Assembly (NCBI RefSeq): GCF_014268585.2
Contig: NZ_CP077092.1
Location: forward strand, 1,178,001 to 1,242,000
DNA: 64,000 nt
Direction of reading: 5' to 3'
Source: Pseudomonas iranensis
GTDB taxonomy: Bacteria > Pseudomonadota > Gammaproteobacteria > Pseudomonadales > Pseudomonadaceae
How positions within the stretch are numbered: the first letter of the stretch is position 1; every line of letters begins with the position of its first letter. Both the position numbers and the translations under genes were made by a program. This document shows positions 44,232 through 54,510 of this stretch, piece after piece. The notes under the pieces were generated by a model. It made no database searches and was not told where the DNA came from. It worked only from the letters and a program-made list of their open reading frames with translations.

Positions 44232-44942
44232 CTATTTGACGTGCCGTCCGCCGTTGACGGTGAGGGTCGTGCCGGTGACATAGGGATTGTCGAGCAGATA
44301 GCGCAGGCTCTGGTAGATCACCTCGCTGCCGGGCTCGATACCCAAGGCGGACTTGGCCAGTGCCTTGGCGCGGTACGCCGCGTCATCGTCGGGGTTGAAC
44401 AATAACAGCGCCGGAGCGATGCCGTTGACCTTGATGGCCGGCGCAAAGCGCGCGGCAAACGACAGGGTCAGACTGTCGAGCCCGGCCTTGCTGGCGCAAT
44501 AACCGATGTGTTTGCTGCTGCCTTTGCGGGTGACGTCGTCACTGATGTGGATGATGTCGGCTGGCGTTGAATGCTGCAGCAACTCGGCGCAGTGCAGGTT
44601 GATCAGGTAAGGCGCGAGCATGTGAATGTTGAACATGCGATTGAAGGCTTGTGCTTCGCTGCCCTGGGTTTCTGCCAGCCATTCGGAGGCGTTGTGCACG
44701 ACGGCGCGCAAGCTGTCGGTGTGGGCTTTCAGCGCGTCGATGAAGGCAAGAATCCCGGCCTCGCTGGAAAAGTCCGCGAACAGCGCTGTCGCGCCAAGAT
44801 CGCGAAGTGCCTGCACGCCCGGTCGCTCGGTGCGGTAGGTGAAAATCAGCGGGTGGCCGTCCTCGATCAAGCGCTGCGCGCAGTGCAAACCGACACGCTG
44901 GCCGGCGCCGGTGATGAGGATCGGGGCTGCGGAATCTGGCAT
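44232..44942 (-). CDS. folM: Dihydromonapterin reductase FolM (SDR)
   Basis: A 236-residue short-chain dehydrogenase. The NADPH site is ILITGAGQRVGLHCAQRLIEDG, the catalytic Tyr-Lys lies in HIGYCASKAGLDSL, and HISDDVTRKGS precedes it. FolM reduces dihydromonapterin to tetrahydromonapterin, the cofactor for phenylalanine hydroxylase in Pseudomonas. The pair with folX supports the call. In P. aeruginosa a folE lies between the two genes, but it is absent here. Confidence 0.9.
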   Translation of the reverse strand: MPDSAAPILITGAGQRVGLHCAQRLIEDGHPLIFTYRTERPGVQALRDLGATALFADFSSEAGILAFIDALKAHTDSLRAVVHNASEWLAETQGSEAQAFNRMFNIHMLAPYLINLHCAELLQHSTPADIIHISDDVTRKGSSKHIGYCASKAGLDSLTLSFAARFAPAIKVNGIAPALLLFNPDDDAAYRAKALAKSALGIEPGSEVIYQSLRYLLDNPYVTGTTLTVNGGRHVK

Positions 44943-45000
44943 GGGCGGCTCGCATCGCGGTTGAAGCGAAAACTATAACAGGCTCGCCGTCCGCTGCAGA

Positions 45001-45570: not shown

Positions 45571-45714
45571 TTTGTATCTCCGTATTTCGAGCGCGTCGTT
45601 CCGGGTAGGAACTTCGCCTGACGCAGGCCGGGGTAGAGGCCTGCGCTTTACAACAAGCAAGGATTATTCCTGATTTTGTCGATTAAACCAGCCATATTCG
45701 TCGCAGATCACTAC

Positions 45715-45743
45715 TTGAAGGTTTCCAGTCCATCATGTTTAAA
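45715..45743 (+). promoter_or_regulatory. Candidate sigma-70 promoter of the MerR-type gene
   Basis: TTGAAG (45715-45720) and TTTAAA (45738-45743) are separated by 17 bases, about 20 bases ahead of the MerR start. This is a weak pattern-based call. Confidence 0.3.
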
Positions 45744-45763
45744 ATGGGATCCAATAAACCGAC

Positions 45764-46741
45764 ATGGAAGTTGACCGCCAGATGCCTGTAATCACGGATA
45801 CTCGCCCGGCCTCAACAGCACCCGGCACGCTCGAACGCGAAGAGCTGTTCCCCATCCGCGAAGTGGCGCGCCTCACCGGCGTCAATCCGGTGACCCTGCG
45901 GGCCTGGGAGCGTCGCTACGGATTGATCCAGCCGACCCGCACCGAAAGCGGGCATCGTTTGTATTCCATGAACGATATCGAGCGTGTTCGCAGCATCGTC
46001 GACTGGATCGATCGCGGCGTGGCCGTGAGCAAAGTCGGCAAGATCCTGGCGAAAACAGAGCCTCTGAAGGTGCTGGCAAACTTTATCCCCGATGATCATG
46101 TGCAGGCCGATTACAAGCAATGGCAGGAGCAGGTTCAGCAGGCGGTCAGTGAGTTCGACGATCAGCAGCTGGATCGCGTCTACGGACAGATTTTCTCGTC
46201 GTACACGCTGCCAGTGGTGTTCGAAGCCATCATCATGCCGTTGTGGCGGCAATTGCTGCAGCGCCAGGACGCTTTCGGGCAAACCAGCGAATGGTTGTTT
46301 CTCGACGGATTTCTCAGGGCGCGCGTGCTGCAGCGCATCATCATGCTGCGGGGGGCTCAACCGCGCCGGGTGGTCGTCAGTGCGCTTGCGGGGCAATGCA
46401 GAGAGCTTGAGTTGCTGGTCGCGGCGCTGTTTCTCAGCGGCAACGATTCTGGCGTGCGGGTGCTGACCACGGGCCAGCCTTTCGATGAATTGACGCTGGT
46501 CTGCGAAAAGGTCAAGCCTGACGCACTTGTGCTGTTTTCCAATCATGCCCCCGGCACAGAGCTGCCCCGACGCCTGAATCGTCTGGCACTGAGCCTCGAC
46601 TGTCAGTTGATGCTGGCCGGCGATGCCTCGGAACTGGCCGAAGACAGCCTGGCCGGTTCTTCGGTGGCCTGCCTCGGTAACGAGGGCGCGACAATGCGCC
46701 AGCGCATGAAACAATTCATGGCAGGCAAACTGGATACCTGA
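45764..46741 (+). CDS. MerR-family transcriptional regulator, LitR/CarH-like without a B12 site
   Basis: A 325-residue regulator. The MerR winged helix occupies residues about 28-97 (REVARLTGVNPVTLRAWERRYGLIQPT). A helical and Rossmann-like region follows that resembles LitR/CarH light regulators (VVVSALAGQCRELELLVAALFL, then GVRVLTTGQPFDELTLVCEKVKPDALVLFS). The B12-binding DxHxxG motif is absent and the equivalent site reads AGQCRELELL, so it probably does not bind adenosylcobalamin. Such class II LitR proteins in Pseudomonas act with short LOV photoreceptors, and one lies 0.7 kb away. The start may instead be the ATG at 45782. Confidence 0.85.
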   Translation: MEVDRQMPVITDTRPASTAPGTLEREELFPIREVARLTGVNPVTLRAWERRYGLIQPTRTESGHRLYSMNDIERVRSIVDWIDRGVAVSKVGKILAKTEPLKVLANFIPDDHVQADYKQWQEQVQQAVSEFDDQQLDRVYGQIFSSYTLPVVFEAIIMPLWRQLLQRQDAFGQTSEWLFLDGFLRARVLQRIIMLRGAQPRRVVVSALAGQCRELELLVAALFLSGNDSGVRVLTTGQPFDELTLVCEKVKPDALVLFSNHAPGTELPRRLNRLALSLDCQLMLAGDASELAEDSLAGSSVACLGNEGATMRQRMKQFMAGKLDT

Positions 46742-46744
46742 AAC

Positions 46745-47350
46745 TCAGGCGTGCAGGGCGGGGTGGGTCAGGCGATGCTGTTGCAGGATGAACTGGCGCA
46801 AGCGCTCGGTTTCGTCTGCATCGGTCTGGCTCAGTTCGTAAGCGAAGAAACCTTGCTCGGTTTCACGCTCGAAATGGCCGCGCAACGAGATGCGCTCATA
46901 ACCGGAAGGGCTGAACCACAGGGCGAAATGTTTCGGTGGTTTGGTCTTGTTGCGCACTTCCAGCAACACGCCTTTGTGCGACACCTCGTGCACCCACAGC
47001 GTGCCGGGCTGGCCTTTGGCGTTTTCAAGCGCCACCGGCTCTTCAAGAACCAGACGCCATGGGCGCACCATCGGGCCGTCTTCGTAGATGCTCGGCACAC
47101 CGAGACGCAGATGCAGCGCGTGGAACTCGTCTTCCACCAGATGCAGCGGGAAAGTCATCTGCTGATTTTCGAAGTTGGCCTGGATCGTCACCTGCTCGTG
47201 AGCAGCCAGACGTGTGAGCAGGTCACGGATCTGCGAACCACCATTAACCAGCAGACTCGACGTTGCATCCCGCACGTTAAGTTGCGGGTTGTGCTGCATG
47301 GTCTGGATGAAATCCAGCTCGTCCTGGGTGAGGAGGGCGTCGCGCTGCAT
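46745..47350 (-). CDS. PilZ-like flagellar-brake-type protein (degenerate c-di-GMP motif)
   Basis: A 201-residue two-domain soluble protein. The C-terminal half, from about residue 110, resembles a PilZ barrel (PWRLVLEEPVALENAKGQ, then TLWVHEVSHKGVLLEVRNK), preceded by a YcgR-N-like domain. The canonical RxxxR motif is not clear and the DxSxxG motif reads EVSHKG, so c-di-GMP binding is doubtful. Assignment rests on layout and weak similarity. The stop is 3 bases from the convergent MerR stop, with no terminator between. A mirror ORF of the same length on the plus strand is a shadow. Confidence 0.6.
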   Translation of the reverse strand: MQRDALLTQDELDFIQTMQHNPQLNVRDATSSLLVNGGSQIRDLLTRLAAHEQVTIQANFENQQMTFPLHLVEDEFHALHLRLGVPSIYEDGPMVRPWRLVLEEPVALENAKGQPGTLWVHEVSHKGVLLEVRNKTKPPKHFALWFSPSGYERISLRGHFERETEQGFFAYELSQTDADETERLRQFILQQHRLTHPALHA

Positions 47351-47404
47351 GGCTAACTCGAAGTGAATAGTTACAAAGTCATTGGTGATTGTAGTTAATG
47401 ACCA

Positions 47405-47881
47405 TCAGTTCGCGGTTTTGTTTGCGCCGTTCGTCGCTTTCAACGTCGCTAGCTCGCTTTGCAGCGCTGCCACTTGTGCTTCCAGCTGCGCAACCCGCTG
47501 CTGCGCCTTGACCTGAAGCGTTACATCTTTTTGCACGCCGATGAAATAAGTCTGCCCGTCATCGGCGTTTTTTATCGTCGACAATGACAATTCGTTCCAG
47601 AACGGCGTGCCATCCTTGCGATAGTTGCGCAGGATTTCCCGGCAGGAACCGCCTTCACGCAATGTCTCGCGAATCAGCTGCAGGCTTGGTTGATCACGGT
47701 CTCCCGCCTGCAAAAAACGACAGTCCTGGTAGAGGATTTCCTCACTGCTGTAACCGGTCATGCGCTCGAAGGCAGGGTTGACGTAAATAAGGATGTTGTC
47801 CTGCTCGCCTTCTTTTTCAGCGACCACGATTCCGTCATTCGACGCGTTGATCACCATTTGCAGCAGGCTGGCGTTGATCAT
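47405..47881 (-). CDS. Short LOV-domain blue-light photoreceptor
   Basis: A 158-residue single-domain LOV protein, similar from memory to the P. putida PpSB-LOV and SBW25-LOV proteins. The FMN site is clear: the photoactive cysteine is C54 in YQDCRFLQAGDRDQP, preceded by YVNPAFERMTGYSSEEIL and followed by LRNYRKDGTPFWNELSLS and YFIGVQKDVT. It starts with the N-cap MINASLLQMVINASNDGIVVAE and ends in a coiled-coil-like J-alpha helix (VAQLEAQVAALQSELATLKA). There is no output domain, so it must act through a partner. GAAGGGATT precedes the ATG. Confidence 0.93.
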   Translation of the reverse strand: MINASLLQMVINASNDGIVVAEKEGEQDNILIYVNPAFERMTGYSSEEILYQDCRFLQAGDRDQPSLQLIRETLREGGSCREILRNYRKDGTPFWNELSLSTIKNADDGQTYFIGVQKDVTLQVKAQQRVAQLEAQVAALQSELATLKATNGANKTAN

Positions 47882-51458: not shown

Positions 51459-51719
51459 TCAAATGTATCTTTTTTCTGTCATGAACTTGGGCGGCTTCCA
51501 GTTAGGTCCTTTGATAGCTAGGCCCTTTTCTCCCTCCAGCAAAATCCCGGCAGCGAAGAGCCGAGCGTACGATGCTTCCAGGGTCCCATACTCGTCGATC
51601 AGGTCTCGATTGTGGCGTCTGATCATCATGTCCAGATGTGGCGTTGCCTGAAGTAACGCGAACACAGTGACTATGTCATCCAGAGGTTCATTTTTAACAA
51701 TCATCTCAACGGTGCTCAT
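51459..51719 (-). CDS. Probable bacteriocin immunity protein
   Basis: An 86-residue soluble, mainly helical protein I do not recognise by sequence (it contains FALLQATPHLDMMIRRHNRDLIDEYGTLEASYARLF). Its position, starting within the last codons of the bacteriocin gene (ATGA overlap), with AAGGAG 8 bases ahead and the same strand, is that of a cognate immunity gene. A GTG at 51725 would add two residues. Function is inferred from context only. Confidence 0.75.
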   Translation of the reverse strand: MSTVEMIVKNEPLDDIVTVFALLQATPHLDMMIRRHNRDLIDEYGTLEASYARLFAAGILLEGEKGLAIKGPNWKPPKFMTEKRYI

Positions 51720-53800
51720 TGCCACATCTCCTTCAGCAATTTCTGGTAATCACGTTCTTCCTGCTCCATTGCTGCAGCCAGTGCTTCGGGCGTGTAGAGA
51801 AGTGCGGGATCGTCTTTCAACTGGAAATCTTCCAACGTTGCCGTATGCACGTTATTCCAGATCGGTGACCCGATCTCTGGCATCTCGGTATCACCAAAGC
51901 CTAAAGCTCTGAATCTTTCGAACTCCCTTATCTCGTGAGTGTAGAAACGTTTGTCAGTGTCGGAAGCTTCGAGTTCTCCACGAGCGATTCGCTCCAGGCG
52001 ATCAAGCATTACGTCATTGGCAGCTGATTGCGGAAACTTTGAAATGTGTAACTTCACGATGTCCGTTCCTTCCGATGAAACAGCGGCTGTTGCCCACTGC
52101 AAATCTGATATTTCATCTCCAATCTCGTCAGGGTTGAAACTACGCCCGCTGTGCTTCCCCTCTTCGGTCGCCCCTTCATAAGGACTGCTGAACACCACAT
52201 AAAGCGGCTCAATCCCCGAATCAACCGGAAACACGATGATGAATCGATCCCAGCCTTCAATCAGGATCGGGTTCAGATCCAGCCGCCCTTCAACCGGAAC
52301 AACGGAAGCGCCGGAATAGGCGGGCGAACCGGTATCCACTATTGGCAAAGCGGTCGATTGGTCGCCCGGCGAGATTGCCGGCGTCCAGGTCAGGAAGTCG
52401 GTAGGCGAGTCCGATAGTGCGACCTCGTATACGTCGTTGAGCAAATCGTATGCGGCATTGAGGACCAGCACACTTGAGCGAATATGGAAGTCATCACTCG
52501 TAGCGACGAACACTTGCGTGCCAGCCCCGAGTCGCCTGACGCCTAGCCCGACCTGCATTTCCAAACTACCCTGCCGGTCCGCGATTTCATGTAGCGTCTC
52601 GGCCGGTTCGGACGACAACTCGGCCAGTGGAACGCTCATGGCGAAGCGTTCGCCGTTGCCCAGAGGTGACGGCATCAACAGTGCTGCGAACCCCATCAAT
52701 ACTGGACTGCCGAACAGCGCCGTGCCCGTCGCTGTCAGGGTCGCTTTTGCGGTACGTAGCGCATTGAGTATTCCCGCCGAGGTAGCCGGGCTGAGCGGGA
52801 CGGCTGTCGAAGCGAAAGAAACGGCCGGGCCGTTGCTGGCCATTGCTCCAGAGGACGGAAAGACATGCTTCCTGTCCTCCTGTAACCGAGGCTGTTCTGC
52901 CGCATGGGCCAGCGCCGTTGGTTCCGCTTTGGCTTGTGCCTCGGCCTGGGCGATTTTCAACGCAGCCAGCCGCTCTTTCTCCCGAGCTTCAACCTCAGCA
53001 TTCAGGCGCGCGGTCTCAGCCGCCGATCGAGCCTGTTCGGCATCCCGACGCTGTTTCTCCGCCAACGCGGCCAGACGCGCCTGTTCGCGTGCGCGGATTT
53101 CTTCCTGCTCCCGGCGCACCGCTTCGGCAATGTCACGCTGGCGCTGTTGCTCAGCGGCAATGTGGGCACGTTCTGCAGCTTGGCGTTGCGCCTCTGCCGC
53201 TGCCGCCTGTGCCTGATCCTGGGCTTGTACGGTGGCCAGCCAATTGAGTACGCCAGCCTGTTGCTGGTTGAGCAGCGCCAATGTCTGGCCCAGCAGCCGC
53301 GCTTCGTGGGCGGCCCGAAACGACTCGCTCCACAACGCTCTGCTGCGGACCGCTGCGCCATGCGCGCGCCGATTGGCCGATGCCTGATTCAGGTAATCCT
53401 TGAAGGTTTTTCCCAGTGGATCGCTGCCATAAAAGCGGTTGGCGATGGCAGTCTGCCGTTGAAACTCGGCGCTCTTGCGTTGAATCAACGTGTTCCTGAC
53501 GCCCACTTCGCGGGCCAGTGCTGCGGCAGGTGGCAGAGGATTGGTCGGTCCTTCCAGCCTGCTCGCCGCCAGTTCGACCTCAATGGTTTGGGGAATAGAG
53601 GCGGTTCTTGCGTTGAATTCCTGTTCCACGGCGACTTGCGTTTCATGCATCGATTCACGCGTCTGCGGATTGGCGCCGGCAGGGCCGAACATGCCGCTGT
53701 AGGAGTAATTCATGTCGCGATCTTTGAATGGTTCGAAGTCATCAGGACCGAACTCCCTGATATGTACTGGATCCAGTTCCAACGGTGGAGGCTTTGGCAT
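51716..53800 (-). CDS. S-type pyocin-like bacteriocin with unrecognised C-terminal toxin domain
   Basis: A 694-residue modular protein. A proline-rich N-terminal region is followed by a long Ala/Gln/Arg/Glu coiled coil (about residues 190-300). A pyocin-S-like translocation domain spans about 380-545 (EMQVGLGVRRLGAGTQVFVATSDDFHI, then IEPLYVVFSSPYEG). A C-terminal domain of about 145 residues begins near GKHSGRSFNPDEIGD. That last domain lacks the HNH DNase pattern of colicin-type pyocins; H622, E623, N649, N650 and H652 are candidate active-site residues. The ATG at 53800 was chosen because AAGGA is best spaced for it. It is followed by an overlapping probable immunity gene. Confidence 0.85.
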   Translation of the reverse strand: MPKPPPLELDPVHIREFGPDDFEPFKDRDMNYSYSGMFGPAGANPQTRESMHETQVAVEQEFNARTASIPQTIEVELAASRLEGPTNPLPPAAALAREVGVRNTLIQRKSAEFQRQTAIANRFYGSDPLGKTFKDYLNQASANRRAHGAAVRSRALWSESFRAAHEARLLGQTLALLNQQQAGVLNWLATVQAQDQAQAAAAEAQRQAAERAHIAAEQQRQRDIAEAVRREQEEIRAREQARLAALAEKQRRDAEQARSAAETARLNAEVEAREKERLAALKIAQAEAQAKAEPTALAHAAEQPRLQEDRKHVFPSSGAMASNGPAVSFASTAVPLSPATSAGILNALRTAKATLTATGTALFGSPVLMGFAALLMPSPLGNGERFAMSVPLAELSSEPAETLHEIADRQGSLEMQVGLGVRRLGAGTQVFVATSDDFHIRSSVLVLNAAYDLLNDVYEVALSDSPTDFLTWTPAISPGDQSTALPIVDTGSPAYSGASVVPVEGRLDLNPILIEGWDRFIIVFPVDSGIEPLYVVFSSPYEGATEEGKHSGRSFNPDEIGDEISDLQWATAAVSSEGTDIVKLHISKFPQSAANDVMLDRLERIARGELEASDTDKRFYTHEIREFERFRALGFGDTEMPEIGSPIWNNVHTATLEDFQLKDDPALLYTPEALAAAMEQEERDYQKLLKEMWQ

Positions 53801-54510
53801 ATTCATGTCCTTTTGAATGTGCGTTTTCACTCGCTCGAAAAGTGCGCACGGGTGGCGATGACATCCGTGTCACCAGCGAATGGTTGAGGTGTTTCAAGTT
53901 ACCTCAGAGTGGCGGTAATCAAATCCGAGAAGCCCGTCAGTAACAGGGCGTTATGTCGAAAGGGTTTTCGCGGGTTTTCATCGATGCAGAGGGAATTCGT
54001 CCGAGCTTCGAAGAAATGTCTGACGCGCTGATGGGAAGCGTTACCGAACCGCATTCCAGCCTTTTTAAACGCCCATAAAAAAGGCCGCTGCAAACGCAGC
54101 GGCCAAGGTAAGACGTTGGATCAAGGAGCTACAAATCAACGTCAGTGAACAGCGGGGCGGTAAACCGAAAACATCGATTTATCCAGAATCTGTAGCCAGT
54201 CGCTCGCGATTCAGCGTAGCGGGCTTCGCGCTTTGCGGCGTGTGCCGGGAAAGCGCGCTCAGAATACGGGCTTGAGTGTGTAGGAAAAATACCGATTCCA
54301 GACATGCACTGTTACGGGGCGCGCAACAGTGGCGTGCCCATGCATGGCGCTGATGATGCGCCATCCAGCCAGCCCATGAACCGCTCAAGGCCCCGCCGTG
54401 CAAGGCCATTCATCCTTTCGAGCGACAACGCAAATACCTCCTTGGTGCGCTTATCGACCGCAGCGCCCGGCAGTAGGGTGGGGCCTTCTGTCACTCACTG
54501 GGGAAGACGC
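53801..54510. other. 710-base gap between the bacteriocin and DUF1302 genes
   Basis: No convincing protein gene was found. The gap holds the bacteriocin promoter region and the upstream region of the DUF1302 gene, plus a minus-strand terminator (54075-54103) with no gene ahead of it. Short ORFs in both orientations lack family resemblance. A short minus-strand peptide ending SMFSVYRPAVH just upstream of that terminator might be the remnant of a lost gene; this is speculative. Confidence 0.5.
54075..54103 (-). terminator. Minus-strand terminator without an obvious gene
   Basis: GGCCGCTGC pairs with GCAGCGGCC around AAAC, and the flanking A6 becomes T6 when read leftward. No leftward gene precedes it within 200 bases. 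Confidence 0.75.

Follow-up and report, generated by a model that had tools for sequence, protein, structure and literature searches.

A short LOV–LitR pair in Pseudomonas iranensis as a probable copy of the PmSB-LOV/PmlR2 light switch, beside an independently inherited PilZ-like gene

Three neighbouring genes of Pseudomonas iranensis, encoding a MerR regulator, a PilZ-like protein and a short LOV protein, raise the question of whether they form one blue-light switch and, if so, which genes that switch would control. A preliminary description of the locus had proposed a B12-independent unit in which the LOV protein inhibits the MerR protein, with the PilZ-like protein linking light to motility or second messengers, and had suggested a search for a MerR operator in the gap upstream of the regulator. 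This interpretation is partly supported by our analysis: the LOV–LitR unit stands, but the PilZ-like member and the control of flanking genes from the gap do not. We refer to the whole stretch of 64,000 nucleotides analysed as the window; it belongs to a genome consisting of a single contig of 6,073,514 bases. The three open reading frames described earlier were all found, at the same coordinates (Table 1).

Table 1. Features of the LOV–LitR locus, with positions numbered from the first letter of the window.
Feature	Position	Strand	Basis
Class II LitR, PmlR2/PplR3-type MerR regulator, 325 aa; proposed repressor half	45764..46741	+	MerR_1, CarH-like profile, co-occurrence
Degenerate PilZ-domain protein, 201 aa	46745..47350	-	PF07238 in relatives only; judged a neighbour
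Short LOV blue-light receptor, 158 aa, Cys54; proposed anti-repressor half	47405..47881	-	PAS_9, structures
Gap separating litR from the divergent ABM-domain gene	45571..45763		Operator scans, alignment
folM, dihydromonapterin reductase	44232..44942	-	NF005066, E 1e-107

The litR and PilZ-like genes are convergent, tail to tail, and the PilZ-like gene lies 54 bp downstream of the LOV gene on the same strand; of the 79 near relatives with both genes, 73 preserve this distance. These near relatives come from a set of 80 named genomes chosen for resemblance to the PilZ-like protein. LOV and litR converge at the folM–mioC site in loci L121 to L123 as well as in the window, and they diverge, head to head, in L125, L192 and L193, where the pair sits away from the PilZ-like gene. 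Elsewhere in the window (51459-53830, minus strand) a 704-aa open reading frame and then an 88-aa one presumably encode an S-type pyocin and its immunity protein, as judged by eye.

The LOV protein matches PAS/LOV profiles only (PAS_9, E 5.7e-23) and has no output domain. Cys54, within YQDCRFLQ, is invariant across the 15 aligned LOV sequences, the window's included, and the pattern for the cysteine motif occurs in 29 of 29 LOV sequences, one of which, L129 with 958 aa, falls outside the short LOV proteins. Solved short-LOV structures match the window's family with E-values down to 7e-74 (7yx0, 7r5n), and 3sw1 does so at 1.8e-52. With one LOV core, the photoactive cysteine and no output domain, the protein is a short LOV protein, as had been described, and it is the one such match in the genome at E 1e-20.

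The regulator was likewise recognized correctly as a LitR/CarH-like protein that lacks the B12-binding DxHxxG motif. Its N-terminal MerR helix-turn-helix domain spans residues 30-96 (MerR_1, PF13411, E 2.3e-16), and a family profile built from 14 sequences matches CarH structures (5c8d, E 8.5e-28, profile positions 14-252). The B12 motif, searched for as [DE]xHxxG, is absent from 26 of 26 LitR sequences, including that of the window; a MerR helix-turn-helix and the lack of the B12-coordinating DxHxxG are two traits of a class II LitR. For the four-helix bundle PF02607 (B12-binding_2) the window LitR gave no match at E ≤ 0.1, although the LitR profile still aligns with CarH in that region; litR1 of the same genome, in which there are two LitR matches, matches PF02607 at E 1.3e-8. 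The window protein shares a MerR head and, by profile match, a CarH-like architecture with class I CarH/LitR of Thermus thermophilus (5c8d); that class works by AdoB12 photolysis, and the window protein lacks DxHxxG. Class II LitR is called AdoB12-dependent in PMC11417400, in conflict both with PMC9758184, where B12 is stated not to be needed in P. putida, and with the motif missing here. In one near relative (G034) litR is split into two overlapping matches (G034:C1:1989944-1990902), from a frameshift or an assembly error.

A short LOV protein and a class II LitR without a B12-binding domain, with one hypothetical gene in the cluster and folM and folX nearby, are also the hallmarks of the PmSB-LOV/PmlR2 region of P. 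mendocina NBRC 14162. As reported for that system, illuminated PmSB-LOV binds PmlR2 and, as measured by surface plasmon resonance, inhibits its binding to DNA; in run-off transcription PmSB-LOV in the light lifts PmlR2 repression; the system worked in vitro with LOV and LitR alone (PMC9758184). The authors themselves state a conflict, in that a gel shift gave a LOV–PmlR2–DNA complex in the light. In illuminated cells phrB rose about 27- to 33-fold, pmSB-LOV changed 0.9- to 1.1-fold and pmlR2 1.4- to 1.5-fold; PmlR2 bound the folM promoter, and folM was up about 2.5-fold in the light (PMC9758184). The B12-independent unit in which LOV inhibits the MerR protein is accordingly supported as a mechanism by that work, and for the same reason it is not new. 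P. putida KT2440 offers a related case, with PpSB1-LOV and PpSB2-LOV acting on PplR1-3 and with phrB, ufaM and folE among the genes concerned (Sumi 2020, as described in citing papers); it has two short LOV proteins and three PplR proteins, compared with the one short LOV match and two LitR matches of the window genome.

We consider it highly probable that the LOV and LitR genes of the window are a copy of the PmSB-LOV/PmlR2 switch, likely with targets in trans, and that the PilZ-like protein takes no part in it. Binding, anti-repression and light induction were observed in P. mendocina only; the evidence here consists of genes, motifs and operators, together with co-occurrence across genomes. 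The switch itself is already published and this is a further copy of it; what is new is the independence of the PilZ-like gene.

That independence emerges from a sample of 119 genomes drawn evenly from the genus, in which LOV matches of at least 179 bits and LitR matches of at least 190 bits were counted, and linkage meant start coordinates within 4 kb, regardless of gene order. Weaker LOV matches (131.5 bits and below), which lie mostly in long frames, were left out, as were the weaker LitR matches among the matches listed (157 bits and below), which were taken as the litR1 group; the split litR of G034 was counted as present. Short LOV and window-type LitR occur together in 105 genomes, LOV alone in one (G091), LitR alone in none and neither in 13 (phi 0.96). 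The PilZ-like gene, present in 115 of the 119, shows no correlation with LOV (phi 0.08; Fisher p 0.37, relatedness ignored). Both partners are found within 4 kb of it in 96 genomes, six of which have a second LOV–LitR pair elsewhere without a PilZ-like gene; it occurs with neither partner anywhere in the genome in 12, with a pair only at another locus in four, beside LOV with LitR elsewhere in two and beside LOV without LitR in one. Conversely, three genomes carry the pair without the PilZ-like gene, with LOV adjoining LitR at the same folM–mioC site, and one genome has none of the three.

The co-occurrence of the three families across Pseudomonas, named earlier as a check, holds for LOV with LitR; the PilZ-like gene is lost and kept independently of the pair. 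The LOV–LitR link is itself not absolute: besides G091, one near relative (L100) has LitR without LOV, and it is the only one of the 80 that lacks any of the three genes. On a tree of 41 rows, made by a quick method with rows chosen to over-represent the exceptions, the local presence of the pair changes at least seven times and that of the PilZ-like gene at least once, where a pair elsewhere or LOV only was coded as absent and LOV with LitR elsewhere as present. Within the genus the lineage-limited PilZ-like gene is nearly universal, and it is near-core at the folM–mioC locus.

In an order-wide sample of 145 genomes, with short LOV taken at E below 1e-60 and a LitR homologue at E ≤ 1e-20 (litR1 type not separated), a short LOV match was found in 18; all 18 have a LitR homologue, and 18 more have a LitR homologue and no short LOV. 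LOV lies within 2 kb of a LitR homologue in 12 of the 18 and does not in the other six. Among the ten of these linked genomes that lie outside the window's genus, none has a PilZ-like match beside LOV or LitR, and four of the 12 (L195-L198, none of the window's genus) have what by eye resembles a rudS gene between the two. The PilZ-like family itself is confined to four of the 145, three of the window's genus and one of another genus of the same family (G136); a third genus of the family contributes two genomes with a LOV–LitR pair and no PilZ-like match. In G136 the PilZ-like gene lies between folM-like and mioC-like genes (L179, by eye) without the pair; the pair occupies another contig, where a second LitR lies some 6 kb away. 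The simplest history would be that the PilZ-like gene occupied the folM–mioC site first and that the pair came to flank it later.

What kind of protein, then, is the neighbour? The window protein, with 100% identity to counterparts in Pseudomonas sp. CFBP13508 and P. siliginis SWRI31, gave no match in Pfam at E ≤ 1 or in NCBIfam at E ≤ 0.01, and so does not reach the cut-off of PF07238 (PilZ). Across its family, 17 of 26 members match PF07238 at E ≤ 1 (best 1.5e-7); of eight taken in detail six match and one exceeds the cut-off (L118, 26.8 bits), the similarity being weak but repeated and lying in the C-terminal part. Six other proteins of the window genome match PF07238, each above its cut-off, and a profile comparison with four of them gave a probability of 63% (P 6.8e-5, columns 93-191). 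The name PilZ-like therefore appears fair, but weak for the window protein alone. A structure model was too poor to compare (mean pLDDT 43.5, from an alignment of close relatives only, at 91-100% identity), and the family profile found no match in the PDB at E ≤ 5. Binding of c-di-GMP by a PilZ domain involves the motifs RxxxR and (D/N)xSxxG. RxxxR occurs within residues 85-110 in five of 38 PilZ-like sequences and is absent near the domain start in the other 33; strict [DN]xSxxG occurs anywhere in nine of the 38, and a relaxed form allowing E in 32. The window protein has neither strict motif, reading RPWRL in the first place and EVSHKG in the second. Its c-di-GMP motifs are degenerate.

The gene is under purifying selection, about equally strong where the LOV–LitR pair is gone. 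Three comparisons among pair-less genomes gave dN/dS of 0.10, 0.04 and 0.10, three among pair-bearing genomes 0.09, 0.07 and 0.10, and four others 0.08 to 0.18. Across these comparisons some dS values are above 1 and so unreliable. The two highest ratios come from relatives whose LOV–LitR layout is of P. putida type, and one of these two compares genomes that both have the pair only elsewhere. As a candidate component of the switch the PilZ-like protein was rejected on co-occurrence, independent loss and unchanged selection, and it would have a light-independent role. From the spacing, the gene is probably co-transcribed with LOV, in which case it would be constitutive too, as pmSB-LOV is at 0.9- to 1.1-fold in the light. 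By position, PME15565 of P. mendocina would be its orthologue; the two differ in description, the middle gene here belonging to a degenerate PilZ family whose inheritance does not follow the switch and PME15565 being hypothetical. The cluster of pmlR2, PME15565 and pmSB-LOV is called conserved in Pseudomonas, the sections consulted give no function for PME15565, and the main text does not contain the word PilZ (PMC9758184). Our literature search found no paper joining PilZ, LOV, MerR and light in Pseudomonas, and among titles on PilZ, blue light, LOV and c-di-GMP in Pseudomonas none concerned this cluster.

If the pair is a switch, its targets should carry the LitR operator, for which we used the consensus T(G/A)TACA-N12-TGTA(C/T)A defined with PplR1 and PmlR2. 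Five exact matches occur in the 6.07 Mb genome. Two, 50 bp apart, lie upstream of rudS in a rudS–litR1–phrB cluster at 5.25 Mb that also holds a ufaM-like CMAS gene; one precedes a DPRP/cryB-like gene by about 40 bp; one starts 4 bp past the folE stop, ahead of an SDR gene (L174); and the last (4246380) is among small open reading frames without an obvious light gene alongside. With up to one mismatch there are 21 sites, compared with 15 for a reversed control pattern, so only the exact sites carry weight, the control applying to this one-mismatch class. The operators thus stand at the same kinds of gene as in P. mendocina (a phrB cluster with a ufaM-like gene, a cryB-like gene and folE), whereas, unlike the PmSB-LOV/PmlR2 region, the window has no folM operator and folE is elsewhere.

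The preliminary description had looked to the gap for a MerR operator and to the flanking genes for control, which the scan does not support: the gap contains no LitR operator at up to three mismatches, the best site having four, and a local operator was rejected at that level. Over the whole window 31 sites with up to three mismatches were found (shuffle mean 17.0, largest 28), those nearest to the gap being inside litR at 46200 and 46713. No operator with up to one mismatch occurs in the loci of the 80 nearest relatives. Because the gap has no operator and four of the five exact operators are at rudS–litR1–phrB, the cryB-like gene and folE, the pair most likely acts in trans. The window LitR would bind these exact operators; counting against them as its targets, LitR1 of the same genome may be their user. 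Within the gap an alignment of 77 sequences shows a block, GCAAGGATTATTCC, that at least 95% of them share. By eye, the gap also contains an inverted repeat, CGCAGGCC ... GGCCTGCG. The folM operator is kept in two pair-less genomes (L115, L120) and missing in the window at 44943-45000.

Three other explanations have to be set against a two-protein switch acting in trans. The PilZ-like protein could be a third component that binds LOV, LitR or a nucleotide messenger and couples light to motility or biofilm. Its linkage to both partners in 96 of 119 genomes and the presence of all three genes in 79 of 80 near relatives are more than a bystander requires, and the 54-bp spacing on one strand and the PilZ membership suggested by PF07238 in relatives and by the profile comparison point the same way. 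Support might also come from P. putida, in which PP_4629 is presumably PpSB1-LOV and in which, by locus numbering, PP_4630 may be the LOV-linked LitR; if so, the switch may touch c-di-GMP-driven behaviour, via LitR and not via the PilZ-like protein. A mini-Tn5 insertion in the MerR gene PP_4630, recovered in a c-di-GMP suppressor screen, abolished crinkling, flocculation and increased biofilm, phenotypes driven by extra copies of the diguanylate cyclase gene rup4959; this was one insertion, and the section describing it reports re-introduction of the plasmid and no gene complementation (PMC4951495). The gene numbered beside it, PP_4629, is called a possible photoreceptor (PMC5743806). Against a third component stand the genomes that keep the PilZ-like gene without the pair (12) or with the pair elsewhere (four), those with the pair alone (three), a dN/dS of 0.04-0.10 in pair-less as against 0.07-0.10 in pair-bearing genomes, the scarcity of RxxxR and of strict [DN]xSxxG, and an in vitro system that needed only LOV and LitR (PMC9758184). 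Kept without the pair, missing beside it, under selection in its absence and degenerate in its motifs, the PilZ-like gene is best regarded as a neighbour, and the idea that it links light to motility or second messengers is very unlikely to be right.

It is about equally improbable that the pair controls the flanking ABM-domain gene, folM and folX from the gap. The behaviour of folM in P. mendocina, and a TGTACA-N12-GGTATA site upstream of folM in 13 of 120 scanned loci, would fit such control; the gap without an operator at up to three mismatches, the 80 nearest loci without a site at up to one mismatch and the position of folE, which is elsewhere here and beside an exact operator, argue against it. 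Hardly any probability attaches to LitR being a direct photosensor, through B12 or another cofactor, with LOV incidental. The alignment of the LitR profile with CarH past the helix-turn-helix would allow this, as would six genomes that keep class II LitR1 and operators without a short LOV, but the [DE]xHxxG motif is lacking, P. putida is stated to manage without B12 (PMC9758184), and in none of the 119 genomes was window-type LitR found without a short LOV.

Those six (G018, G020, G026, G027, G028 and G054; L206-L211) were inspected out of the 13 pair-less genomes in the sample, and they yield a further new observation, namely that litR1–phrB operons persist without a short LOV. In each of them litR1 and phrB remain, accompanied by one or more exact operators, and the aligned part of LitR1 has no B12 motif; rudS is near full length in five and partial in L209. 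No BLUF match was found in the 12 pair-less genomes tested. Nine of these 12 contain at least one exact LOV cysteine motif, in five of them (G013, G027, G028, G054, G094) with a LOV match in a long frame, where a larger LOV protein may exist, and the remaining three (G020, G103, G109) have no exact motif and no LOV match, a miss of the exact motif being no proof of absence. Of these three, G020 is the only one whose litR1 operon was inspected, and it has no LOV match at E 1e-20 and no BLUF; the other five inspected genomes have one or two cysteine-motif matches each, so in these the input could come from a LOV domain within a longer protein. Light or another stress may be sensed by LitR1 directly or by way of a further partner. 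A switch other than short LOV or B12 may operate class II LitR regulons, a possibility that we hold only tentatively and think rather doubtful; these operons are the part worth an experiment.

For the window, the two-protein switch would work as follows. In the dark, LitR would sit on T(G/A)TACA-N12-TGTA(C/T)A operators and block RNA polymerase. Blue light would form a flavin–Cys54 adduct in LOV, and the lit LOV would bind LitR, lower its DNA binding and allow the genes to be expressed. The likely targets, in trans, would be rudS–litR1–phrB at 5.25 Mb, the cryB-like gene and the folE region, with functions in photoreactivation, pterin supply and the removal of s4U from tRNA, the activity of RudS (PMC11417400). 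The PilZ-like gene, near-core in the genus, would simply now be flanked by the pair.

A published light switch is thus present, as two co-inherited genes, in this fluorescens-type Pseudomonas and in most of the genus, and the connection to PilZ and c-di-GMP signalling, tempting as it was, falls away as unsupported. A conserved neighbourhood alone can mislead: the PilZ-like gene stands beside both partners in 96 of the 119 genomes, yet it is inherited independently of them.
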